NCBI GenBank assembly: GCA_963971405.1
Contig: OZ020491.1
Span: 2,424,910-2,488,909 of the forward strand
DNA from: Psococerastis gibbosa
Taxonomy: Eukaryota; Arthropoda; Insecta; Psocodea; Psocidae
DNA length: 64,000 bases
Reading direction: 5' to 3'
Translations under genes and position numbers: made by a program
Shown: positions 545 to 26,032 of the stretch, piece by piece
Numbering within the stretch: the stretch's first letter is position 1
How the letters are laid out: each line of letters opens with the position of its first letter
The notes under the pieces: generated by a model
What the model was told of the DNA's origin: nothing
Databases searched by the model: none
The model's input: the letters and a program-made list of their open reading frames with translations, nothing else

Positions 545-1767
<1,223 letters not shown>

Positions 1768-1921
1768 GTATTCGATCCCGCCCGAGCACGGACGACGTCT
1801 GGAGCGGCTAGCCACTGGATTCTTCCCGCCGAACGCTCGCTCGTGCCCAGCGTTTCTGCGACACAAAACCACTCTGATCTCCCCGCCTGTTCTTCGCCAG
1901 TACTCGATTCCGTATAACAAG
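1768..1921 (+). CDS. Kdm4: KDM4 JmjC exon 2 in window (zinc ligands)
   Basis: The first base completes the tryptophan codon split by the previous intron, giving [21 protein letters not shown] and continuing to [15 protein letters not shown]. This matches the KDM4 JmjC segment [24 protein letters not shown] supplies the cysteine and histidine equivalent to C234 and H240, two of the four ligands of the structural zinc that shapes the active site. The acceptor is TTGTTACAG and the donor GTGCGT; the exon ends on a whole codon (AAG). Confidence 0.95.
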
Positions 1922-2803: not shown

Positions 2804-2952
2804 ATTACACAGGAAGCCGGAGAAATAATGATTACTTTCCCGTATGGGTACCATGCTGGTTTCAATCACGGCTTTAACTGCGCGGAAAGTACCAATTTTG
2901 CGGCCCCGCGATGGGTCGAATACGGGAAACGCGCGTCCCAGTGTTACTGCAG
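2804..2952 (+). CDS. Kdm4: KDM4 JmjC exon 3 in window (third iron ligand)
   Basis: The translation begins [19 protein letters not shown] and continues [18 protein letters not shown] to QCYC, the KDM4 signature. The histidine of GYHAG is the third iron ligand (H276 in human KDM4A). The paired cysteines of CYC are the remaining zinc ligands (C306/C308). The acceptor is TTTATTTTCAG and the donor GTAAAT at 2953. Two bases (AG) are left over and are completed by T of the next exon. No residue expected for catalysis is missing. Confidence 0.95.
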
Positions 2953-3720: not shown

Positions 3721-3885
3721 TAACGATATGGTGAAGATAAGTATGGACACTTTCGTGAAGCGGTTCCAGCCAGAACGTTACGAGCTCTGGCTGGCCGGCC
3801 GCGATGTAGGCTACCATCCAGAAGATCCCACCCGCTCCTACGCCGCTCCGCTGCCCACCGAAAGGGATATCCTATGTAATAAGAA
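3721..3885 (+). CDS. Kdm4: KDM4 exon 4 in window, end of catalytic core
   Basis: After the codon completed across the intron (S), the product reads [40 protein letters not shown] and ends near DILCNK. The first part equals the conserved KDM4 segment [20 protein letters not shown] that follows the zinc site and closes the catalytic fold. The donor GTAAGT lies at 3886. Two bases (AA) remain and are completed by C of the next exon. Confidence 0.93.
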
Positions 3886-4191: not shown

Positions 4192-4569
4192 TTAAGGGCA
4201 AACCGGAGTCGCCGATATTCCATTTTCTGTTCAAACTTCAATTTCTCATGGAATATGGAACGCAGAACAATGAAAAAATAGTGAATGGAAAGTTGAATTT
4301 TTTCTCCTAATTTTGATGCATAGTGTGTGGCCTTAACCCACCCCAATTCGCCACAGTTGATGAACTCCTGATTGACCGTTATTTTTTGCGTATCAAGTTC
4401 ACTAACTATAGCCGATCGGTATTGATGATTGCAACATACTATGTATCAAAATTAGGAGAAAAAATTCTTCTTTCCATTCAGCATTTTTTCATTGTTCTGC
4501 GTTCCATATTTAATGAGAAATTAAAGTTTGCACAGAAATGGAATATTGGCGACTCCGGTTTGCCCTTAA
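4192..4569. mobile_element. Palindromic MITE with TTAA ends (piggyBac-like?)
   Basis: The two ends are inverted copies: TTAAGGGCAAACCGGAGTCG at the left and its complement ending GGTTTGCCCTTAA at the right. The arms extend about 130 bp inward, through a diverged ATTCCAT.TTCTG block and an AATTAGGAGAAAAAAT block. TTAA at both edges suggests a piggyBac-type target site. It is non-coding and lies in the Kdm4 intron 3886-5044. Confidence 0.6.
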
Positions 4570-5044
4570 GGTATTCTGTGTTTGTTTCTAAATGTATGCG
4601 ATGTTGCCTCTATGATATATATAACTGTTTTATTGTGGGTATTTTAGGTAATTCATTGAGTTCTTGGCTTGGGAAAGTATTCACTTTTTTATGTATGAGT
4701 TTTAGTATTTTTCTTTGAGTAATATTTACTCTTTTAAACACATTTTGGTAAGCTCCGTTCAGGTCTCACTCGTCCCCGGAGCGTAGCCACTCAACAGCCG
4801 TTTTTCAATCATCAACACCTATCAGCTAGTGCTTCCATATTCTGAGATGTTTTTTTTTGGTAGACTCATGGGTGTGGTCATTATCCAGCAGCAGGATATA
4901 CAATTTTCGGATTGTTTAGTTTGACATGATTCCACAAGCTATGCCGATGGCCCCTTAAACACCTCCTCTATACTTTGAAAGACCTCGAAAAAGCAAGCTT
5001 TGGCGGAACAGCTACTTTAATCGTAAATATTTTTCTTGATTCAG
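4570..5044 (+). other. Kdm4 intron, 3' part
   Basis: Nothing is recognised between the MITE and the acceptor TTGATTCAG at 5044. Confidence 0.7.
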
Positions 5045-5256
5045 CAATAAGGACCTGCCTCAAACGTTCATTGATGCCCCAAAGAAGGGCAAACGACATC
5101 CCATCCACAAGAAAAAGATGATGGCCAGTGTGGTTGTGGAAGAGTTACCAGAAGACGTCCTTCAGGCGATGGACGATATGGAGGAGTTGGACGAGGCCCC
5201 GGACGAGCAGGAGCTCCAAGTTCTTGAAGATATATGGCTCAAGGCTGGAGACATGG
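5045..5256 (+). CDS. Kdm4: KDM4 exon 5 in window, acidic linker
   Basis: The exon follows the catalytic core and encodes NKDLPQTFIDAPKKGKRHPI, a lysine-rich stretch (HKKKMMAS), then an acidic segment (LPEDVLQAMDDMEELDEAPD) ending EDIWLKAGDM. I recognise no folded domain here. The acceptor is TTGATTCAG. The donor GTGAGT at 5257 leaves a single G (phase 1). This phase matters because both downstream exons (8874 and 12660) begin with the two bases needed to complete a codon, so either can be joined in frame. Confidence 0.9.
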
Positions 5257-5970
5257 GTGAGTGTTCTTATGAAATTACCTTGTACGGAGTTGGGTCTTTG
5301 TTGTATCAGCAGGGTCTTTTCGTGTTTTTTAGATGTTGGGGAAATTGTATTTCTTTCTTTATGGTCTCAAAATTTACAATCGTCACCTTTCAGTCAGATG
5401 GGCGTACCATCAAAGGCAACATTTCGGCGTGGTTGCGTTTTTAAAGCTGCTTTTGCTCATAACTACGACAGTCAGATACGCCTAATCCAAAATTTCAGCC
5501 TTATTTTTCAAGATTAATTGTTTTCGGTGTATGCAAGGGTAGAGCTCATGACAAGGTCACGAGCTCTAAATCTGATCATAACTCAATTTCGCCAAAAAAA
5601 TGTTGGTTACGCCCTCCTGACTGTAAGGTGACGAATTATGTATGCATTGTGCTGTGGTAATATTTCGGGTAAAATTGACTTTTACATGTGCCAAACTGTA
5701 TGTTAAAAAGCCCATACGTACCTATCTTCTGACACTTCCTATATTTGCCTGTATATTAGCCGACTGTACCGGAAGTGTTACGCAAAATTATTGGAGACAC
5801 AATGGGTTCTGTTCTGTTTTAAGTCTCTTCTTGAGTGTAAGAGAGGCCCAAACAGCCTTAACTCCGCAATGTATTTATTTATTTATAAGTGGACGTGGGC
5901 CTCGTTCCCATTCTTGGTTAATTTGTTTTCTTGTCACAATGTAAGCATGTCTGAGGTTGCCCATTGGCAC
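5257..5970 (+). other. Kdm4 intron with SINE tail scrap
   Basis: This is the first part of the long intron (or introns) 3' of exon 5. At about 5829-5890 there is a short + strand copy of the shared SINE 3' tail (TTGAGTGTAAGAGAGGCCC, then CCTTAACTCCGC and a TTTA run). The rest shows nothing recognisable. Confidence 0.55.
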
Positions 5971-6757
5971 TTTAAAAAAGAAACGGCCCGAGTTTACTTG
6001 AACATGCTTTCCAATTTATAGAGTAGTAGATAGACATAATGGATCATTTCATTGTAAATAATTTCCTCACTCAATTGCATATTCTGGAACGATCAGACCA
6101 ATATATTGTAACAGTATAGACTGTATAGTAACAATGACAGGGCATGCAATGTATTCTCCATAATTTCTTAAAAAAAGAATTTTTTCCCCAGTACCAAATA
6201 TTTTTTTTGGGAAAACAACCTGTTTGGTTTTGTTACTCTATTGAACATCTAAAACATGTGAAGGTAGAAATCATCCATAGAAAGGTTTCCAGAAAAATTA
6301 ATTTTTAGTCATTTTTCATGAAAATTTAGTTATTTTGATTTTTTTACCCCCAGAAGCAAACTGTCAAGGGGCACACGACCCACCGCATTTTGTTGACATT
6401 AATAACGACTACAATATATGTGAATTTAAAAGAAATCGTTGAGCCGTTTTTGAGAAATATTTTTTTAGGCTTTTTTTTTGGAGGTTTTTTGAAAATAAAA
6501 CCCCCCAAAATTGCATTAGCCCCAAATAAAAAAAATGGTTCCGAGGTATGATTTTTGTGAACCTACGTGCCAAATTTCATCAAAATCGTCTGAGTAGTTT
6601 GCCCGGAAATTGACGCACAGACAGACAGATAGACATTAAGTAAAAACCACTTTTTTTGGTTCCTGGTACCTTAAAACGTGTAAATCCGTTGAAATCTCGG
6701 AATCGAAAATTTGGATCATCACAAAACTTTCCTTTTACTACGTTTAAATTGGAAAGC
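5971..6757. mobile_element. Unclassified repeat T, copy 1 (diverged)
   Basis: The copy starts near AAACGGCCCGAGTTTACTTG, has GCTTTCCAATTTA near the left end and its inverse TAAATTGGAAAGC at the right end. Shared internal landmarks are a CAGGGCATGCAATG block, CCCCCAGAAGCAA, AAAGAAATCGTTG, GCCGTTTTTGAGAAAT, GTTTGCCCGGAAAT and a CAGACAGACAGA run. Longer, closer copies are at 46903, 49726 and 54792, with a fragment at 56360. No transposase ORF is visible, so this is probably a non-autonomous DNA element. Confidence 0.65.
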
Positions 6758-6962
6758 AAAAGAAGTCACTTTAACTTGTCGTTGGTGTGGGTTGACATCG
6801 AGGTGGGAAACAGTTTGCCAACGACCAGAAATTTATTCGGACACAATACCACTAATGTCCAAAAACCGATGGGCAAGGCCACCATACGTCCATAAAAAGC
6901 CCAACAATAATATTGTATTAATAACATAATATGAGAACGTAGACCCTAAATATTGGCTACCC

Positions 6963-7497
6963 CTGCAGCCCGATCATGGCGATTTGGTATTATTATAATA
7001 CCGGGGTTAATATAATACCATGTCACGTGATGGTATTAATTCAATTGTTTAAAATCAATGAACAGTAAATTTCAGAATTTTTTAATGTTAGTAATCGTCC
7101 CTGGAGTGCTAAGCGTGTCTATGTAAGCAAATGAATGATCGGCTATATTTTTGGTGATTTTCTAAATTTTTACTGCCTTAGATTTAGACAAATTATTTAT
7201 AATTCTTATATATTTATAATGTATATATGTATATTTTATTTTTATTTATATTTCAAAACTTGTTCATTTTAATTAATGCTAATTTCTAGGGCGATATGTT
7301 TATATTTTGCAATTTAAATTTATATTTGCTACGGCAGCGTCGCGTCAGTTCCATTCTCCAGTATTGCTAACATCACAATTTAAAAAATTCTGAAATTTAG
7401 TGTTCATTTATTTTATACAATTGAATTAATACCATTGCGTTGCGTGACACGGTAGCACATTAACCCCGGTATTAAAATCGCCATGATCGGGCTGCTG
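6963..7497. mobile_element. Foldback MITE, family with CCCGATCATGGCG ends
   Basis: The left end (CAGCCCGATCATGGCGATT) is the inverse of the right end (ATCGCCATGATCGGGCTG). Inner arms also pair: TACCGGGGTTAAT against TTAACCCCGGTA, and AATTCAATTGT against ACAATTGAATT. Smaller relatives are at 17052, 33582 and 33744, and larger ones at 58455 and 59446. No coding content. Confidence 0.65.
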
Positions 7498-8168
7498 GAA
7501 ACAAGTAACAATTTTTCCGCTTATATCAAGTCTTGAGCCTCGACCCCCCTTTTCATAGTCTAGCGTTTTACCAATGTTTACTCCATGTTAACTCTCTCTT
7601 CGTGTTTTTTTTCTGCAGCACTGAAACTATTGTGTGTAGCTTTATTTAGTTTTCTGTCATTACCCTCGTATTTAAAGTAAACTTAACTTCTTTTGCGCCT
7701 CGCGTGGTAGTACAGCTCAAAATTGGGAGTTGATCCTGGTTCGCCTGGTTAGTAGATGTTTCCATATTACCACTAGTCTTATCAATCAGGGCTCATGGTT
7801 GTTTCCCGCATTTAGATGGAGTAGTCGTTTCACAAAGCTTGCCGGCTTAACTAAATGGACCGATGGGAATTAATAGTGTTGATAGTTTTGTAGTGGTAAA
7901 CTAAATTGACAGTTGTTAATGTGACCTATGCCGGCTATGCCAGCTAATTACTTAAAAATAATAATTATAATAATAATACAGCAGTCGTAGCCGTTTTGTG
8001 GTGATTTTACGACCAAAATTTGAAAAATGTAAGTAAACCAAGTGCACCACTAGAATCTGTGTCTGTATCTGATTCTACTATCGATAAATTTGTTTACCGT
8101 TTTCGCCTCATTTATCGCTTCAGGCGTTGGCTTAAGTAAGTTATTTACAGAATCTTAAGATTAATGGA

Positions 8169-8268
8169 CCTCTCGTGTTTTTTTTTTGGTGAAGGGGCGG
8201 GGGGCTTGGCAAATTAGGGGCGGCTTGTAGTGGGCAATAATTGGGCTTATCAACACTGCTACTAAACG
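8169..8268 (+). repeat. Direct duplication, proximal copy
   Basis: This roughly 100-bp segment (CCTCTCGTG, then GGGGCGG, GGCTTGGCAAATTAGGGGCG, TAGTGGGCAATA to TAAACG) recurs at 8743-8855, directly before the exon at 8874. The two copies flank a SINE piece and a Penelope-like arm. Confidence 0.75.
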
Positions 8269-8362
8269 ATATAACGCCCTCTGTTGCAATCAACAAGAAC
8301 TAGGCAAAGCCTACATTAAATATATTTTTAAAAAATCCCCCAGAATAATGGCCAGGAAATAT

Positions 8363-8437
8363 TGCAAGCGTGGGACTTGAACGAACAGCCTTTCGGGAGA
8401 AAGTCTTGAGTTCGTACCACTACGCTACATGTTCTGA
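8363..8437 (-). repeat. tRNA-derived SINE, family B fragment
   Basis: On the minus strand this reads as a tRNA-like head with A-box-like GTAGTGGTACGAACTC, CCGAAAGGCTGTTCGTTC and a B-box-like TTCAAGTCCCAC. Related heads are at 44208-44335 and 57500-57735. It is degraded and is not a tRNA gene. Confidence 0.55.
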
Positions 8438-8513
8438 CTTCATGTGTTTTTGTTGATACAGTAGCATCCGGCTGTGAAAGGGTTCTTTGAAATGTTTGTA
8501 AAGCTAATTATAT

Positions 8514-8600
8514 CCACTGAAGTTGTCTGTAGCAGATGTTGGTGAAACGTTTGGAAGTACTCTTTCACATTGACCACGGTTCTTCAGCCCGGATTCTACT
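8514..8600 (+). mobile_element. Penelope-like terminal arm (single)
   Basis: The segment CCACTGAAG, GCAGATGTTGGTGAAACG, TTTGGAAG, GACCACGG, CAGCCCGGATTCTACT is homologous to each arm of the palindrome at 32748-33038. The pattern (CTGA, stem, GAAAC) recalls the hammerhead-containing ends of Penelope-like elements. This single arm is diverged. Confidence 0.5.
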
Positions 8601-8742
8601 GTATGAACTCAATGACATCTGAAATTATTTGCAAATATGGTGCTTTGTTTTGATTCACATAATAAATAACAATGCGTAATTTGTGCAATAATAGTGTATG
8701 AGCATTAGTCATGATTGCCCTTTATCTGCTCACTAGATGTTG

Positions 8743-8855
8743 CCTCTCGTGTGTTTTTTGGTGAGGGGGCGGGGCTTGGCAAATTAGGGGCGGCTTTGGG
8801 CGACAGGCGGCATGTAGTGGGCAATACTTCGGCTTACCACCACTGAGATTAAACG
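8743..8855 (+). repeat. Direct duplication, distal copy next to exon
   Basis: Second copy of the 8169-8268 segment, ending only 18 bp before the exon at 8874. It contains a short extra stretch (TTGGGCGACAGGCGG) absent from the first copy. Confidence 0.75.
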
Positions 8856-8873
8856 CCTGCCTTCTCGTTGTAG

Positions 8874-11323
8874 AGCTCACCGAGGCTTCCATCTACGACG
8901 ACGGCTACAACCGCCGGAAGCGCCGAAATAAGAAGAAAAACAAAGAAAAAAAGGAGAAACGCAAGTCGAAGGAGAGTGATGAAGACTACAACCCCTATAA
9001 TGATGATGACTATAACTCGTACCTTCACGATGACATGCCTCCTGTTCCCAGCGTTAGAAAACAGGAGAAAGAGAGTCAAAATTTGGGGTTGTGTGATATG
9101 AAGAGGAATAGGAAGAAAATGGAAATTCCGGAGGATTTTGTTAAGACAGTTGAAGCTGTTGTTGTACCCCCGAAAAAGAAGAAGCCGATGTTCCCACCCG
9201 GGTTTGTGCCGTACGATATTCGTAGCGTGATGGATCGAATGATTAAAACTTTGGAACGAAATGAAGCCAAGGAATTGGCGAAGCAAGCGAGGATGGATGA
9301 AAGGTTGAGGTTGAAGTTGGAGCGGGATGAGAGGATTAAGGAGGAGAAGAGGCTTAAATTTGAGGCGAGGAACGAGCAGAAACGGGTCAAGGATGAGTTG
9401 AAAACGCACAAATTTGAGACCAAGAAGGTTAGGCCAGTTGATGTGGATAGGATGTCTGCAGGGACAGTTGTGAATCCCCGCTTGCCGAAGCCTAGGTCCA
9501 AGCCGCCCCTGCCCAATATGCGTAAAGCCCAAAAACTAATGAGATCGTTGCCGAATCCTTTTATAAATAAGGTTGTGAAGCAGGAAACTTCTGATCCTAT
9601 GGATGACTTGTTGAATATGTTGCTTAATGAGCAGCCCGCGAACGGCGGTGGGTTCTCGCAGTTGGACACGTTGACTGACTCGCTAAATACGTCGTCGTCT
9701 GCGACATCTGTTGGTTGGGATAGTTACGTGCAGACAAGTTTGCCGTTTAAAAAGACGAAGCCGCAAAGTTTGCGAGAGGCTCGTGGGCCGCCAAAAGTGA
9801 AGCCTGCTGCTGCGCTGGGCAAAGCGCCAGTTGGTGTTGTTGATAAGACTGGTTTAAGTAATGGGCAGTGGGATTTCCAGCCGGATCTAGTAGGACAAGA
9901 TGGTTTGGCAGCAGCTAGAAGTGAAGATACAAGTGGATTGGCTAATCAGTGGGGTGTAAAATCAGGAACTGAGCAAGCTGTTAACCAAGGATATAACCAG
10001 AACCAGTGGAATATGAAAGTCATGGTGGAGAATGTGGAAAATGGTTTGTCGGTGGCAGCTGGTAGAGGACATAGACCGATGCAAGTGCTCAGTCAGGCCA
10101 TAACACCTAAACCGGAACAAACCAGTTTGACTAATACGAGGAATAGTCAGGCTACAACGGTTAACCAACGTGTTGTACAACCTAAAAAAGGATTGCTGCC
10201 GACGGCTATAGCTGTACCGAGTCCCCCTTGGCCGAAACCAGAATGGCAAAATAGTCCACAATCGGCTTTGACTGCTGTCCATACTAAAACAGAACAAGTA
10301 ACAAAAACGGTGAATAATCCGGCAACATCTTGGACTTTAAAGCCGAAAGTTGAACTGCAAAATGGTTCAGGTACAAATGGGGGTAGCCCTATTAGCCCGC
10401 GATGGACTTTACAACCGAAAAACAATCAGCTACTGGCTTCGTCACGGAATAGTACGCCTTCTTCCGGAAATCAGTGGAATTTCCAGACAAAAAAGAGTCA
10501 GGTGCCAGCTTTATCAAAGGCCCAGCTGGTGAAGCCAATGGTTGGAAATAATCCATCGGGTAGATACTTAAGTCCTAATACGGATGTAGTGGTGAGTCGG
10601 GTACCAGCGCAGCCTCGGGCGAATAACAGAACATCTGCTCATGCGCAACCGCCGGTAGAAGTAGAAAATGCTTCTCAGCAGTCTCTTCTGAAGAATAACC
10701 TCCAGTTACTGGCAAATTACTCTTACTTGAACGTTACCAATGGTAAACAAGTGGGTACAAATGGACATACTGCGAGTCAAATTGACCATGGATATGATCA
10801 GTGTCGGGGGCAGTTTAGTCCTCGAATTCAGGCTGGTGTTATCAGAGCTACTGAGCCCAGACAGAGAATGTCCGTACCTGTATCTACTCAAACGGCAAAT
10901 ACTCAAAGATCTGCTGTACCTTCGGGAACAAACCAGCGTGAGTTACTCCAAAACGCTGCCATCTTGCAAAGACTGACTACTCCCGTATCAAACCCGTCTC
11001 GTCCAGCCTCGCTAAAGTATCGGCAAAGTTGTGGATCTACTCCACCTGCTCAGATCTCTTCTCATAACTACCTCACCTCGACTGACTATGACGTTACCCA
11101 ACAACGTTCTCCTTCCGATGGTCGGCTGTCGCAGACGCTTCCTGTTGGCCCGCCTGAGCTTGTCAGCTGTCGGCAACGGGTGGATTACTCAAATCAAGCA
11201 GTATTAGGGAGTTGTGACAAGCCAGCCAGGCTACCTCCTGCTTCCACTATTCTACCGTCTAGAACAACGCACAGCAGTAGTTTCGAAGATTCATTTAAGA
11301 GCTTTTTGACGTCTTGGGCGTAA
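8874..11323 (+). CDS. Kdm4: KDM4 alternative last exon 1 (long disordered tail)
   Basis: Joined to exon 5, G+AG gives E and the frame runs ELTEASIYDDGYNRRKRR onward with no stop to TAA at 11321-11323, about 815 residues. It opens with a very basic stretch (KKKNKEKKEKRKSK), then an acidic Asp/Asn/Tyr stretch. A long charged, probably helical region follows (around 9226-9430, RMIKTLERNEAKELAKQARM and on). The rest is Q/N/S/P-rich sequence without recognisable domains, PHD or Tudor. Six tryptophan-centred motifs recur (QWDFQPD, NQWGVKS, NQWNMKV, SWTLKPK, RWTLQPK, QWNFQTK). The acceptor is TCGTTGTAG. The stop overlaps a donor-like GTAAGT at 11320, but using that donor would not fit the phase of the 12660 exon. 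An AATAAA follows the stop by 43 bp. Confidence 0.85.
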
Positions 11324-11861
11324 GTATATATGTTGTGTATTTATTTTTTTTTCGAGGTGGAGTCTAAATAAAATAGATAATAATATTTTTTCCACTTACC
11401 AATCAGATGAATGACGTCATTTTGGGTTTCTTTACGAAAGTTGTGCATTAAAGGATGCCAATAATTGAAGAGTAGACTACTAGCACCTTAAGTTAAGTAT
11501 TGGCATTACCCGTGGCAATGCAGCTGGTACTAATTCGCCTCATGGTCTAAGTTAATGGGTGTCCAATCACCGTAGACCATTAATTAACATTAACATTTGG
11601 TTTCTGAGTGCGCTCGACGTAGTAGTCTCATGTTATTTGTGTCCTATCACCGCCATTTTATTAAGTTGGCTATATAAGACTATAGATCTTCACAATGTCA
11701 GTGCTATCGAGTTATCTAGTTAGGAGTGTTATCATCCAAGTTAACACACAATAGTCAATAGTGAGTGGACCTCAGGGTGAGTTATTATCGAATGAATCGA
11801 AAATATTAAATAAAGTGAACAACGTGCTAACTTAGTCAGGATGTTTGTGGCACTGTCTTAA
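11324..11861 (+). other. 3' UTR of long isoform and intronic sequence
   Basis: The first part is the likely 3' UTR of the isoform ending at 11323, with AATAAA at 11367-11372. The rest, up to the MITE at 11862, has no recognised element. Confidence 0.5.
11367..11372 (+). promoter_or_regulatory. Candidate polyadenylation signal (AATAAA)
   Basis: AATAAA lies 43 bp after the stop of the 8874-11323 exon, a normal distance for a short 3' UTR. It supports that exon being a terminal exon. Confidence 0.55.
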
Positions 11862-11980
11862 GGCGGGGTTTCCACATACGTCAATGGTAAATGTGGTATT
11901 GACGTTTTAGCAGACATTTTTAATGTCTGCTACCACGTCAAAACCATATTTACCATTGACCATTGACGTATGTGGAAATC
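11862..11980. mobile_element. Small palindromic MITE of the TAGCAGACATT family
   Basis: A near-perfect hairpin: left arm CCACATACGTCAATGG, then GGTATTGACGTTTTAGCAG; right arm GTCTGCTACCACGTC, then CCATTGACGTATGTGG. The centre TAGCAGACATTTTTAATGTC is the shared core of the family (36387, 44394, 63895 and the outer arms of the 380-bp elements). Confidence 0.75.
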
Positions 11981-12184
11981 TTTCTTCTCTCCTTTCTATA
12001 ACTCTAGTACAGTAGCAATGGGACATTTGCTCAAACCATGAATATTTTTTGTTTCTTTTGCCACCTGCCGACCAGTCGTATTTTGCCCAATCAGAGTACA
12101 CCTTGCTTCCACGACAGGATTTGTTGTTGTTTGGAAGTGTCCAAGCCGTGCTCTGATTGGTGGCAGGTGGCACCAAAAACGCAA

Positions 12185-12625
12185 AATCCTAACATTTCGT
12201 CACGTGGTCTATTCACTGAAGATCCCAACCATTGCAGTTTCCTTCCCTCTATGTTCTCCATCAATGGGTCTTCCATCTCTTCTCGTCGCTTCATTTCAAA
12301 CTCTATTCCTTCTTGTTCTCTAGCGGGCTGTCCTGATGTACTTCTTGTCAACCATGGTTTGCTATTGGTCTGTTTTAGGTGATGTCTTATCGTTACTGGT
12401 ATGCAGCCATGATATCTCTTAAAGACTTCCATATTCTTTTCAATTTTGGCCGTGGTGTCGGAGCGAAGTCTGGTGTATTGATCATTGTCTATGAGGCTGA
12501 ATATTTTTCCTCATGCTCGGCCTTGTCCATTGCTATGATCGTATTACCCTTATCAGCTGGGAGTATCCTAACTGATGTGTCCTTCGTTAAGTTGCTGATG
12601 GCATTTTTCAATCATGGTTGCAATG
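12185..12625 (-). mobile_element. Penelope-like reverse transcriptase fragment
   Basis: Minus-strand translation includes ADKGNTIIAMDKAEHEEK followed by DNDQYTRLRSDTTAKIEK, the N-terminal signature of Penelope-like reverse transcriptases (ADKGNT.V.MD......). A second part (RREEMEDPLMENIEGRKLQW) resembles another LINE tail, so the region may be composite. It is frame-shifted and short, and its end lies about 35 bp before the acceptor of the 12660 exon. Confidence 0.55.
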
Positions 12626-12659
12626 GCCCGTAATCAATTTGTATTCATTTATTTTGCAG

Positions 12660-13813
12660 GCCCGAAGCCTGAAGAAGTGTACGCCATCCCAGTGGACCTG
12701 CATCCGTCGCCTATTAAGCCCTACAATATTCTACAGGCATCAAAGCTCAAGCGCAAGCCTGAAGAAGTGTACGCCATCCCAGTGGACCTGCATCCGTCGC
12801 CTATTGAGCCCTGCAACATTCTACAGGCATCAAAGCTCAAACGCAAGCCTGAAGAAGTGTACGCCATCCCAGTGGACCTTCATCCGTCGGCTATTGAGCC
12901 CTGCAACATTCTACAGGCATCAAAGGTCAAACGCAAGCCTGAAGAAGTGTACGCCATCCCAGTGGACCTGCATCCATCGCCTATTGAGCCCTGCAACATT
13001 CTACAGACATCACAGCTCAACCGCAACAACACATACGTCGTGATAGCGCGGCGTCTCAAACTTGCCATGCGCATATTGCACACCCTCGAGACCAAGCGAG
13101 CCGCCCGTGACATCATTGCGGAATTAGCGCGTCTGCATACGGAACCCGACGGCGGGCAATTTGAAAACTTCGAAGACCTGCTCTGCAAGACTGATCTGAT
13201 ACCGGTGTCGCTCAAACAGAAGCGGCGCAAGCCGGAACACGAGACACTACTCGACAAACTGAGCCATTTGGAAGGTAACAGAGAAGGTAAGAGGCAGTGC
13301 AGCGCCTTGTTTAAGAGCTTAAACGAGGATAAGCTGTTCGGCAAGTCTTATACACCGTCAAAAGTGAAAAGAGTGAGGAAGACGAAATCAGATTTAAAAC
13401 TGTGTAATGTTGTGTTGGATAGGTATCCCGAGCCCTTGACTGATGCTGAGGCTGTTGAGAATTTTGCTGAGAATACGAGTAGTTTGCAAGGCATTGGGGA
13501 TGATAGTAATAATACTGAGGGATCTCATATGGGTTTGTTAGACGTGGATTTCGAAGACATGTTAAGTGGAAACGTAACTCCTGTGCAAGAGTTGATGCCT
13601 GATTGGCGTGATGTACGGTTGACGCCACCGAAAAGCATGCCGTATATTGCTCTGAAGGGGGAGAAACAGGCTGTGGGGGTGCCAGAGGGGGGAGGGCGCA
13701 AGAGAAAGTCGGAGCAGGAGAAATTGGTAGATAGTTTGTCGGAGTTGGAGAAAATACACGTGGAAAGTGCTTTAAAGAGAAGTTCTAAGGTACGGTTTAC
13801 TAATTTGCTGTAA
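12660..13813 (+). CDS. Kdm4: KDM4 alternative last exon 2 (repeat-bearing tail)
   Basis: The exon follows a strong acceptor (TTTATTTTGCAG) and begins with GC, which completes the single G left by exon 5 (GGC, Gly). The joined frame reads DM-G-PKPEEVYAIPV. It ends at TAA 13811-13813, about 384 residues. Four 30-residue repeats open it, followed by a basic, probably helical region (VVIARRLKLAMRILHTLETK), lysine/arginine-rich patches (KQKRRK, KVKRVRKTK, GGRKRKSE) that could be nuclear localisation signals, and acidic stretches. I recognise no domain. It does not fit the phase of the 11320 donor, so it is better read as an alternative last exon than as the continuation of the previous one. It could also belong to a separate gene. 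Confidence 0.75.
12665..13024 (+). repeat. Four tandem 90-bp coding repeats
   Basis: Units start at 12665, 12755, 12845 and 12935, each exactly 90 bp and nearly identical at the DNA level. Each encodes 30 residues beginning KPEEVYAIPVDLHPS and ending near CNILQASKLKR. The last unit diverges at its end (TSQLNR). Near-identity at synonymous sites points to recent expansion or homogenisation. Confidence 0.95.
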
Positions 13814-14488
13814 TTTTAGTAACTAGATGTAAATATGTTGAACGTCTTCAGATGAATTATTCTACACTAAATTTTTATTGGGTGGACTCTTGGAACGTAC
13901 AGTGGTGGCCGGATTCTTGTGGTGGATTTTATTTCGTTTAGTTGTATTCATGATTAATGTATAGGCTATGGCTTAAGAGTTGTGGCTTCGTTCTGTGACT
14001 ATTTGTTTTGATGTGAAAACTATCTTAGGAGTTGAGCGAAGGCAGTGATTTCCAATCAATTTTGTAACGTGTATTTTCGAATAAATAAATTAATTCTTCA
14101 TTCCACCGCCAAACCAATATCGTCTTATAAAAAGTCAAGCTTCAGAGCGGTCTAGTAATCGACTGATTTACGACCAATCTATGAAATCTTTATAGTGCAT
14201 TATCGTTGTTTAGCTAGAGTAACAGTTTAGCCGCGAACATGCAAATTTACTTAGAGTACTTATACTTTTTATTTTCATAAGACCATTTTCATATATTTGC
14301 GGCTTCTGTGGCATTTATTTATTAATTAAAAAATACCATACGCTTACAAAATATTTGGAAACCTCATCCTTTATTCGGATACATTTCATTACATCACTCC
14401 ATTCTGTTCTCCAAAAATTTGGAAAGATTCCCCTTAATCGTATAGCAGAAGCGTCCCGCCTTTTTTAAATATTTGTTTTGCTCTATAC
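13814..14488 (+). other. 3' UTR and flanking intergenic DNA
   Basis: The first 270-300 bp are the likely 3' UTR of the isoform ending at 13813. Nothing is recognised after the polyadenylation signals. Confidence 0.5.
14080..14089 (+). promoter_or_regulatory. Overlapping polyadenylation signals
   Basis: Two overlapping AATAAA hexamers lie about 270 bp after the stop of the 12660-13813 exon. This is the likely distal end of the gene. Confidence 0.6.
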
Positions 14489-21075: not shown

Positions 21076-21462
21076 TGTGGGGACCACTTAGTCCCACATG
21101 TGTAATAACCAGTCTGCTTCCAGCTTCACCTTTTTCCCGTTAGATGGCGCTGTTCACATTCAGATAATTCAATATTCCTCAATCTTCCTTTTACGTATTT
21201 ATTTCTCTTATTCAATAATATCTTTAATCTACCCTCTGTGTCTCATCAGCTCCTTTAGCTGTGGACACAGAGTTGGTTTTTCTATATGGAAGCAGGCTGG
21301 ATCAAATTCAATATTAATTGTAAGCATGTATCGTTCTCGTCTCACAGCTCATATTGTAACCACTGTGTGTTAAATTACTCTAACTTGAGTCGAAGCACTG
21401 CAATACAAACCAATTCAAGTCTACACTGCCTATTCAATTGCATCGTCCTTCGAAAAGCTACA
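21076..21462 (+). repeat. Left LTR of the CsRn1-type element
   Basis: 387 bp, the same as 26044-26430 as far as I can read. Begins TGTGGGGACC and ends AAGCTACA. Confidence 0.92.
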
Positions 21463-21499
21463 TTGGTGACCCTCGACAACGGAACAAGCAGCCTTCCAG

Positions 21500-21866
21500 A
21501 CTCCAGTTCCAGCCAGTTCCAGTTCCAGCCAATTCCAGTTCCAGCCAATTCCAGTTCCAGCCAATTCCAGCCAGTTCCAGCCAGTTCCAGTTCCAGCCAG
21601 CTCCAGTTCCAGCCAGCTCCAGTTCCAGCCAGTTCCAGTTCCAGCCAGTTCCAGTTCCAGCCAGTTCCAGTTCCAGCCAATTCCAGCCAGTTCCAGTTCC
21701 AGCCAGCTCCAGTTCCAGCCAGTTCCAGCCAGTTCCAGTTCCAGCCAGTTCCAGCTTCCAGCCAGTTCCAGTTCCAGCCAGTTCCAGCTTCCAGCCAGTT
21801 CCAGTTCCAGCCAGTTCCAGTTCCAGCTTCCAGCCAGTTCCAGCCCGTTCCAGTTCCAGTTCCAGC
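21500..21866 (+). repeat. CAGTTCCAG minisatellite in the retroelement leader
   Basis: An array of CCAGTTCCAGTTCCAG-type units of variable phase between the primer-binding site and the conserved Gag region. It is open in several frames, which creates long artefactual ORFs on both strands. A second array of ACAGCTACAACCGCT-like units follows at about 21965-22065. Confidence 0.9.
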
Positions 21867-22090
21867 CTCCAGAACGTCTCATCCGGCCATAGGCGGTGGA
21901 AACTACCCCGGAGCAGCTACATTCACCGCAGCAGCACAGCCACAACCTGCAAGATGCCGCAGACCACAGCCACAACCGCTACAGCTACGACCGCTACAGC
22001 TACAACCGCTACAGCTACGACCGCTACAGCTACAACCGCTACAGCTACAACTGCTACAGCCACAACACCGACACCCACGGCTACAACCAA

Positions 22091-22859
22091 GATGACAGGC
22101 CCTGCTAGTACGATGGCAGTCTCGGTCAAGCTTCCACCCTTCTGGACACAGTCGGCCAACCTGTCACCGGCACTGTGGTTCACTCAAGCGGAGGCTCAGT
22201 TCGCACTTGCTGGGGTCACAATGGAAACGACGAAATATTACCACGTCCTTTCAGCGCTCGACCAAAGTACCCTCAGCGAGATCTCAGATTTGTTAGCTGC
22301 CCCAGTACCAGTAAACCCATACACTGAGCTAAAAACGCAGTTAATCCAACGAATGAGTCTTCCAGCAAGCAGTCGCATTCAGCTACTAATGTCGGAAGAC
22401 ATAGGGGACAAAACTCCCAGCTCTTTTCTCCGGAGACTGCGGGCCCTCGCAGAGAAAGCCATATCAGACTCGGTTTTACGCACCATTTGGACGTCTCGCC
22501 TCCCGCACGCTATACAATTGGCAATCATCGGTCATGATCACCTGTCACTAGGTGACGTCGCGAACCTCGCCGACAAGATGGCCACCATCAATTCAGCAAC
22601 ACGTGACCGGATTCTTGAGTGCACAATGGCCCCTGTGGACCTATTGAAGACGTTAACAGAGAACGTCGCGGCTCTACAGGCACAGTTCGCCGACAGATAC
22701 GGACAACGTGCCACACAGCCACGGTTCCAGCGCCAGTTCCGTTCACCAGCGCCTAAACAAGACCCAACTTGGTGTTTTTACCACCAAACCTATGGGAGGA
22801 AGGCCAGAAAGTGCCAGCAGCCATGCAGATTTCCGAAAAACGACGATCGCAGCCAGTAA
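22091..22859 (+). CDS. Gag-like ORF of the CsRn1-type element
   Basis: The conserved Gag body begins around [18 protein letters not shown] and includes [14 protein letters not shown], typical of invertebrate Ty3/gypsy Gag. It ends with a zinc knuckle starting [10 protein letters not shown]. The open frame extends upstream through the repeat leader, so the start codon is uncertain. It overlaps the Pol frame by about 90 bp, consistent with the frameshift expression known in this family. Confidence 0.85.
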
Positions 22860-25800
22860 AGGCAGGGCCTGCCTGCGCCACTACACACCTGCTTAAAACC
22901 TCACATCGCCTTCTTATCACGGACCCTTGCACCAAGATACGTTATCTCATTGACACAGGGTCCGACATCTGCGTTTTTCCACGTGCCCGTCTCAACCTAC
23001 CGCTCCGTCGTACTCAACTCGAGCTGACTGCCGCCAATGGCACAATCATCAATACGTACGGAACAACAGCTCAACAACTGGACCTGGGATTACGACGCAG
23101 TTTCCGTTGGAATTTCATCATTGCCGATGTCACGCAACCCATCATCGGTGCAGACTTTCTCGCAGCCTCTAATTTGCTGGTGGATCTCCAGAACTCAAAG
23201 CTGATCGACGGGACAACGCATCGCAAGGCGAACCTGTGTCAAAGCCCCTCCAAGCAACCTAGCGTTTCTACCTTAACAATACCGCACAGTACCCCGGCCA
23301 GTCTAAAAGTAATAATTGAGGAGTTTAGCGACCTCACGCGGCCGAGACAACCCACAGACCAGGTCAAACACTCCACGGTCCACTACATTAGAACGACAGA
23401 CGGACCTCCCGTCTCCGCTCGCCCACGCCGGTTGGCCCCGGACAAGTTTATTATCGCCAAAAAGGAGTTCAACGACATGATCCAGACCGGCGTATGTCGT
23501 CCGTCCGACAGCCCATGGGCCTCACCATTACACCTAGTACCTAAAAGCGACCATTCATGGCGCCCATGCGGGGACTACAGACGGCTCAATGCTCGAACAA
23601 TTCCTGACGCGTACCCAGTCCGCCACATCGCAGATTTCAGTGCAGAATTGCGAGGAAAAACCGTATTCAGCAAAATAGACCTGGTCAAAGCATTCACCCA
23701 GATACCAGTTTCCAATGGTGACATTCCAAAGACAGCAATAAATACTCCGTTCGGCCTTTTCGAATTCCCATTCATGACATTCGGTCTTCGCAATGCTGCT
23801 CAAACCTTCCAACGCTTCATGGATAACATCCTACGCGACCTCCCGTGGGCATATTCATACATCGACGACGTACTGGTTGCATCGAGTGATAAGCAGGAGC
23901 ACGAATCACACCTACGTCAACTCTTCCAACGATTCCGAGAATATGGCCTAGTCATTAATCCTAGCAAGTGTACCCTCGGCGTTGGGTCAATCAGCTTTCT
24001 TGGTTACCTCGTGTCAGCAGAAGGCACACAAGCCCTACCAGACAGGGTAAAGGCACTCACTGAATACCCTCTTCCAAAGACATTCAAAGATCTACGCCGT
24101 TTCCTTGGCATGATTAACTACTACCGCCGGTTCCTACCAAATGCAGCCAACGAACAAGCACCACTCAACACGTTGTTATCTGGAGACAAGGTAAAAGGGA
24201 ACGCTACGATACCATGGACAACAAAGCTTACCGAAGCTTTCAGCTCATGCAAACACAGTCTGGCACGCATCACCCTACTCGCGCATCCAGATCATACGGC
24301 TCCGATTGCACTAGTCACAGATGCATCAGACACCAGTATCGGAGCTACAGTCCAACAACGGATCAACGATCATTGGCAGCCATTGGCATTCTTCTCGCAG
24401 AAACTTAAAGAAAACCAACGAACATGGTCCGCCTACGATCGCGAATTGCTTGCGGTACACGACGCCATTCGTCATTTCCGTTACCTGCTAGAAGCGCGCG
24501 CTTTTGTCGTGTATACCGATCACAAACCGTTGACGCACGCTTTTCAGAATCCAAAAACAAGTTGCTCACCTCGCCAAATGCGGCAAATGGAATTCGTCTC
24601 TCAATTCACCACGGACATCCAATACATCGCTGGGCAGGACAACTTGGCCGCTGATGCATTCTCAAGAATCGAAGCAATCTCTACTCCCGTATCTCCTGAG
24701 CAACTTTCTTCTGCTCAGAAAGACGACAGAGAACTCAAAGAGCTTCGGTCCAGTAGAAAGACGTCCCTCATCCTCGTTGATGTTCCCATTCCGGGCTCTG
24801 ATTCAGTCCTTACGTGCGATTCTAGTCAAGACATACAACGCCCATTTGTGCCCAAACCATTACGTCGACAACTTTTCGAGCACCTACACAGCCTACATCA
24901 CCCAGGAATAGCAGCGTCTGCTAACCTGGTTGCCCAACGCTACATATGGCCTTCTATCCGTAAGGATTGCCGCGCTTGGGCTCGTCTGTGTGTCAACTGT
25001 CAATTGTCCAAGATACATCGACACACCCTCACTGCGATTGGAACCTTTACTCAGCCTGACCGACGGTTTCAGCACATACACCTCGACATTGTAGGCCCAT
25101 TACCACCGTCGGAAGGCTACACGTATTTGTTAACACTCGTTGACCGTTTCACGCGATGGCCGGAAGCCGTTCCTATGGTGAACATCACCGCCGAAAACGT
25201 CGCCAGAACCCTCATTTCCTGCTGGATCAGCCGGTTTGGGTGCCCGGAGACAATTACTACAGATCGCGGCCGACAGTTTGAGAGCCATTTGTTTGCTGAC
25301 CTGGCCCGATTATGCGGATTTCACCATGCACGGACTACCAGTTACCACCCTGCATCCAACGGCATGGTAGAGCGTATGCACCGCTCACTCAAAGCCTCCA
25401 TTATGTGTCATGCCAATGACAAATGGACGGAAGCCCTTCCGCTAGTTTTACTGGGCATGCGCGCCACTCTTAAGAAAGATCTTCAAGCTTCTCCAGCAGA
25501 TCTGGTCTATGGTGAACCATTAAGACTACCAGGACAGATGCTGACAACTCCTCCTTCAAATCAGAGTCCGGCGGACACTCTCATCTCACTTCGAAGGAAA
25601 TTCGACTCACTACGCCCCACTCGCGTCAAGAGACACGGGGCTCATCAAACATTCATCCCACAAGACCTTGCCAAGGCCACGCACGTTTTCGTGAGACAAG
25701 ACCACGTCCGTGCTTCCCTCGAACGTCCTTATGCGGGACCATTCCCTGTGTTAAGTCGCACCGACAAAACAGTTACGATTTCAAGCCGCGGTCGTGCGGT

Positions 25801-26032
25801 TACTGTGTCAATGGACAGGGTCAAGCCGGCCTACATTAATGCCAGTACAGACGAACCGTCTCACCAGTCTACGATCAACCCCCCGCATCAGCATCCTGCT
25901 CAAGATAAACCTCAGGAGAAGGTCTCCTCACCACTTCCTGCCACTGACGTCGTGCCGACACCACCGACTCGCACCACTCGCTCAGGTCGTCACGTCCACG
26001 TTCCACGACATTTCTCCGACTTCCAGTCTTAG
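22769..26032 (+). CDS. Pol polyprotein of the CsRn1-type element
   Basis: Domains in order: aspartic protease ([14 protein letters not shown], near 22950); reverse transcriptase with [15 protein letters not shown] and [11 protein letters not shown] (near 23790-23890); RNase H ([12 protein letters not shown] and YTDHKPL); integrase zinc-binding region (H..H..C..C around HLHSLHHPG and CVNCQLSK); and the integrase core ([29 protein letters not shown]). The product acts in reverse transcription and integration of the element. It is in a different frame from Gag and overlaps it. Confidence 0.93.

Follow-up and report, generated by a model that had tools for sequence, protein, structure and literature searches.

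The window analysed here, a 64,000-nucleotide stretch of the Psococerastis gibbosa genome (contig OZ020491.1, positions 2,424,910 to 2,488,909 of the forward strand), contains the 3' part of a gene of the KDM4 histone demethylase family in which a single donor, that of a hub exon, is followed by two phase-compatible candidate last exons, tail A and tail B. A paralogous core on a second contig, C15, is followed by 15 such exons, and zinc-finger tails were found on C15 and not in the window gene. Judged from sequence, the two genes probably follow a plan like that of lola, set here on a demethylase, in which the window hub exon (5045–5256) would be spliced to tail A or tail B, giving predicted products of 1250 or 818 residues, and the C15 hub exon to one of 15 finger-bearing tails. 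The parts of the window gene are as follows.

879–1063, forward strand: KDM4 core coding exon 4 of 8 (JmjC); exons 1–3 are upstream of the window
1768–1921, forward strand: KDM4 core coding exon 5 (JmjC)
2804–2952, forward strand: KDM4 core coding exon 6 (end of JmjC)
3721–3885, forward strand: KDM4 core coding exon 7
5045–5256, forward strand: KDM4 hub exon, coding exon 8; donor G/GTGAGT (slashes mark splice borders), one base left over
8874–11323, forward strand: tail A, candidate last exon; 815 residues past the junction codon, stop at 11321–11323, no fingers
11367–11372, forward strand: AATAAA 3' of tail A
12660–13813, forward strand: tail B, candidate last exon; 383 residues past the junction codon, CAG acceptor
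12665–13026, forward strand: tandem repeats of tail B, four units of 90 bases (30 residues) each
14080–14085, forward strand: AATAAA 3' of tail B

To complete the window gene we read the 10 kb upstream of the window (same genome, contig C19), which contained three further coding exons and gave a full core of 434 residues with an intact JmjN-JmjC arrangement. Both domains scored above the curated Pfam cut-offs in the window core and in the C15 core, and both cores contain HTED and a second stretch of 11 residues, which would carry the Fe ligands (HxE...H pattern) of KDM4 cores. The closest solved structures were those of human KDM4C and KDM4A, matched with 303 bits across 161 JmjC residues, and KDM5A gave a weaker match of 128 bits. 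By domains, Fe-ligand motif and nearest structures, both genes are thus assigned to the KDM4 (JMJD2) family, in agreement with an earlier note on this DNA that had recognized a Kdm4 catalytic core in the window; the substrates, going by the family, would presumably be H3K9 and H3K36 methylation.

The five core exons in the window amount to 865 coding bases, and a base-by-base check confirmed that a single G is left over after 5256, at the end of what the same note had counted as exon 5 and is the eighth coding exon of the complete gene. Tail A begins with AG (G+AG, Glu) and tail B with GC (G+GC, Gly), and the claim that both finish the split codon and stay open was borne out, with 865 + 2447 = 3312 bases or 1104 codons through tail A and 865 + 1151 = 2016 bases or 672 codons through tail B. 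The tail A stop, TAA, was likewise found where it had been placed, with its AATAAA 43 bases further on. The open frames of tails A and B run to 852 and 404 codons, respectively; in 100 Markov shuffles of window positions 5257–14100, from each of which the longest open frame was taken, the longest was 184 and the median 124 codons. In-frame codon scores were 0.103 for tail A and 0.158 for tail B, against control maxima of 0.005 and 0.044 (best of six frames in 400 presumed non-coding window segments for each tail length). The coding character of tail A belongs to its front, which resembles the linker described below and is followed by a long low-complexity stretch rich in Ser, Asn and Gln. No Pfam domain was found in either tail, including no C2H2 finger in tail A. 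Tail B consists of its four 30-residue repeats and then a charged stretch; the 90-base units are much alike, too alike for a selection test, and a structure predicted from the single sequence had a mean predicted local distance difference test score (pLDDT) of 37.2, too low to be informative. Searches of the genome, of the 190 kb read at the C15 locus, of Pfam and of PDB turned up no relative of tail B. That tail B is coding and phase-compatible is supported, and its only ties to the core are position, strand and phase.

A search of the genome with JmjN returned six places, and a search with the JmjC part returned strong matches at the window gene and on C15 only, together with weaker matches (35–50% identical) at two places on contig C3 which we read as other JmjC genes. 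In the C15 core, eight exons follow the layout and phases of the window gene; its reading frame is intact, 429 residues long and 76–77% identical to the window core, and its hub exon, ending at C15:29561650, has an identical G/GTGAGT donor. When tail A was searched against the genome there was one weak second match (E 5.7e-4), located about 60 kb beyond the C15 core on its 3' side. Around the paralog we read 190 kb of C15 and found 15 open exons 3' of the core on the same strand, spread over 66 kb (C15:29566426 to 29632203). All of them are open behind acceptors in the phase of the window tails, the junction residue being Glu or Asp, and each has a variable charged stretch, then a linker module and then 4–10 strict C2H2 fingers. 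The linker is centred on IPxDFVEA and KTLxxYEDCxxCxGT..HLLxH, in which two Cys and two His are invariant in all 15 tails.

Fingers were present by motif in 15 of 15 C15 tails and as zf-C2H2 by Pfam in all seven tails submitted. The tails together contain 101 strict fingers with 95 distinct sets of contact residues, and the contact positions, for which the four usual C2H2 DNA-contact positions were used, were among the most variable sites of the fingers. Nonsynonymous divergence (pN) was below synonymous divergence (pS) in all 105 pairs of C15 tails, and pS was high, at 0.59–0.83 in the ten of these pairs for which values were listed; both observations argue against recent copying. Two short finger-bearing frames lie between tails 9 and 10 (C15:29602625–29603017 and 29603582–29603989) and may be decayed tail copies. 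Beyond the array, two further same-strand frames with 8–9 C2H2 fingers (C15:29689902–29690819 and 29697347–29698207) have a different common start, RVDNV..E, and sit behind a near-identical acceptor, TTGTATTTTGCAG; they may form another group of alternative finger exons.

The acceptors of the 15 tails share an element. Over the last 37 intron bases their mean pairwise identity was 78.5%, whereas the preceding 37 bases reached 31.5% and the opening 37 bases of the exons 40.8%. The element reads approximately CTACTAAAGC..GCTATCTCCTTCTCTTATAG/A and comprises a TACTAAA branch-point-like sequence, a pyrimidine run and TAG/A. This TAG/A end was seen at all 15 C15 tail acceptors and at tail A; the 14 core introns of both KDM4 genes all end in CAG, as does the intron before tail B. 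Across the 409-Mb genome we counted five exact occurrences of the element pattern and four of a 32-base form (up to 3 mismatches allowed), all of them within the array and none in controls. Strict patterns of this kind pick up a minority of the 15 copies, so that the counts cover near-exact copies and more diverged ones may lie elsewhere. The combination of a branch-point-like TACTAAA with a TAG acceptor would fit regulated use; the default in the window gene may then be tail B, given its CAG acceptor, and tail A the choice under regulation.

Tail A was related to the array in both its protein and its acceptor. A profile of the 15 C15 linkers scored 46.8 bits on tail A, the best of 1000 shuffles reaching 7.8 and tail B -1.9, and the match stops before the finger region. 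Scored against the 15 acceptor elements, the tail A acceptor reached 12.1, tail B 0.5 and the 14 core acceptors 4.6 or less; members of the array scored 23.1–26.8 among themselves. Two features of the window lie at this acceptor.

8834–8873, forward strand: tail A acceptor region, ending TGTAG/A; ranked first of the window's 3548 AG-ending 40-mers for similarity to the 15 C15 elements
8169–8268, forward strand: copy of about 100 bases of 8743–8855 (74%), containing CACTGCTACTAAACG; its source lies immediately 5' of the tail A acceptor

The duplication at 8169–8268 is a possible trace of a lost second tail. By protein and acceptor, then, tail A is a finger-less relative of the C15 tails. That it is a KDM4 tail is strongly supported, because a paralogous KDM4 core on C15 precedes 15 exons with the same linker module, the same phase and the same unusual acceptor.

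The arrangement can be compared with known insect genes. At least 20 isoforms of lola are reported in Drosophila (PMC1947980); from one hub exon, Nasonia is reported to make over 180 and Apis 58 (PMC5000498), and at least 31 are reported for mod(mdg4) (PMC4667647). As these genes are described, a common 5' part and a hub exon are followed by many alternative 3' coding exons, mostly with zinc fingers, which is the layout seen on C15; the common part is BTB in those genes and a histone demethylase core here, and the splicing demonstrated there is predicted here. Pfam found only JmjN and JmjC in both cores, and the absence of BTB rules out membership in the lola gene itself. A JmjN-JmjC core with C-terminal C2H2 fingers is reported for REF6 and ELF6 in plants and for Gis1 in yeast (PMC7105484, PMC5758875), and the REF6 fingers are reported to bind CTCTGYTY and to target the enzyme (PMC7105484, PMC5758875); each of these proteins has a single fixed set of fingers, whereas C15 offers 15 alternative sets and the window gene has no fingers at all. 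C2H2 fingers have been described as rare among histone demethylases (PMC7105484). In one open-licence library, surveyed mostly at the level of listings, we met no KDM4 gene with alternative zinc-finger last exons. Human KDM4A-D share the catalytic core and supply the nearest solved structures; the C-termini of KDM4A-C carry PHD and Tudor domains, unlike tails A and B with no Pfam domain.

In the scheme that we favour, the C15 gene would act as a hub, with one demethylase core and one donor from which a tail is picked through the common 37-base acceptor element. Each tail would add the conserved linker and its own C2H2 fingers, and the tails would thereby aim the demethylase at different genomic sites. 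In the window paralog the tail family would have been reduced to the finger-less relict A, which stands beside the unrelated tail B.

Several observations weigh against this scheme. The rear half of tail A alone scored -0.002, that is, no clear codon preference. For five of the 15 C15 tails no AATAAA was seen in the stretch searched, which extended 1200 bases or up to the next exon, and in six an in-frame ATG falls among the first 60 codons. No docking pairing that would explain the choice of tail was found in the 190 kb of C15 or in the window: the reverse complement of a 19-base form of the element was absent from both within 4 mismatches, and with a score of -23.5 the strongest duplex of the C15 hub intron fell inside the spread of 40 shuffles (best -29.0, median -20.3). 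A Dscam-type docking/selector pairing is thus unsupported by the complement search and by the duplex scores. Related exons also occur outside the array. A genome search with one linker and the start of its fingers found at least 26 places (150 of 667 candidates scored), namely the 15 C15 tails, tail A, two minus-strand sites on C15 and eight weaker places (E 3e-5 to 9e-4) matching mostly at the finger end. The two minus-strand linker/finger modules (C15:29214760–29214984 and 29220767–29220991) lie about 330 kb before the C15 core, and the second has an ordinary CAG/TT acceptor (500 bases read at 29220960). The genome search with JmjN gave no such domain at either module. Because these modules are on the opposite strand, have a different acceptor where it was read and have no KDM4 core found with them, exons of this kind can also belong to other genes. 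The array may have derived from a neighbouring zinc-finger gene, and the minus-strand modules are a possible source.

These modules, and the in-frame ATG codons, would also fit an alternative in which the C15 finger exons are separate genes, pseudogenes or exons trans-spliced to several first exons in the manner of mod(mdg4), tail A having been captured by one KDM4 gene only. Trans-splicing has precedent, mod(mdg4) and lola being given as the two best documented insect cases (PMC4667647). We nevertheless consider this alternative unlikely. Two separate KDM4 cores both precede this exon family in the same phase and on the same strand, nine of the 15 tails have no in-frame ATG in their first 60 codons, and all 15 frames are open behind their acceptor with pN below pS in every pair.

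The remaining points against the lola-like scheme concern donors inside exon A, two of which are given here.

10938–10943, forward strand: candidate donor AGC/GTGAGT inside exon A, in phase with 12660
11320–11325, forward strand: donor GTAAGT overlapping the tail A stop, out of phase with 12660

The earlier note had taken 11320 to be the only good late donor and one that breaks the frame. The site does leave two bases and put 12660 out of frame, but it is not alone. When donors were ranked by a simple consensus score, 12 sites reached 27 or more, and the donors at 10592 (30.0) and 9428 (29.5), each leaving 0 bases, scored above 11320 (28.5), while 10938 (28.0) leaves 1 and is in phase with tail B. 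The 11319–12660 join is itself workable and changes the end of tail A from ...SWA-stop to ...SWAPEA-stop. Phase alone therefore does not enforce exclusivity, since 10938 is in phase with B and the 11319–12660 join adds only three residues, and for the same reason tail A need not be a last exon. One core with two mutually exclusive tails, as first suggested, is still the simplest model, although phase permits A–B joins. Exon A could instead be an optional internal cassette, skipped in the tail B protein and included either through 11320, which would lengthen tail A by three residues and leave B as 3' untranslated region, or through 10938, giving a shortened A fused in frame to B. The consensus donor at 11320 and the in-phase donor at 10938 speak for such a cassette, to which we would give a small chance only: an AATAAA follows the tail A stop by 43 bases, the related C15 exons are separate alternatives with their own stops (10 of 15 followed by an AATAAA over the distance covered), and neither donor scores as high as even the weakest of the eight core donors of the window gene (29.5–32.5 on the same scale). 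Slightly less probable again is that tail B, which has no relative in the places searched, is a 3' exon of another or unknown transcript, as its strand and phase fit the KDM4 gene, it has a CAG acceptor, a coding score of 0.158 and the AATAAA at 14080, and between 13813 and 21259 the same strand has no further frame of at least 200 codons.

Other features were noted in the course of the analysis. The hub intron of the window gene contains a dispersed repeat (5974–6761) with several copies at about 79–87% identity in the 190 kb of C15, and long intronic inverted repeats at 4193–4571 and 11865–11990, spotted by eye, resemble small mobile elements. Long overlapping frames at 21384–26029 (491 and 1091 codons) are retroelement-like, and their final residues are seen again where a frame at C15:29541863–29542699 ends. 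Elsewhere in the genome, COX1-like sequence was matched 43 times. The top match is on the mitochondrial contig C68, and many others are short and sit on large contigs, probably as nuclear mitochondrial inserts. CCTAA occurs 1771 times within C15:1–10000, a count that fits an arthropod TTAGG telomere.

Taken together, the sequences make it likely that the C15 KDM4 gene encodes a re-targetable chromatin eraser, in which at least 15 last exons would give at least 15 C2H2 arrays, with the window gene as a sister that keeps a relict tail. If so, an enzyme would here take the place of the BTB adaptor in the lola plan. To our knowledge, the way in which animal histone demethylases of broad action reach their sites is largely an open question, and one eraser core paired with many sets of fingers would make targeting testable tail by tail. 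The C15 tails, with one hub donor, one phase and one 37-base element, would also offer a clean natural case for the study of last-exon choice.

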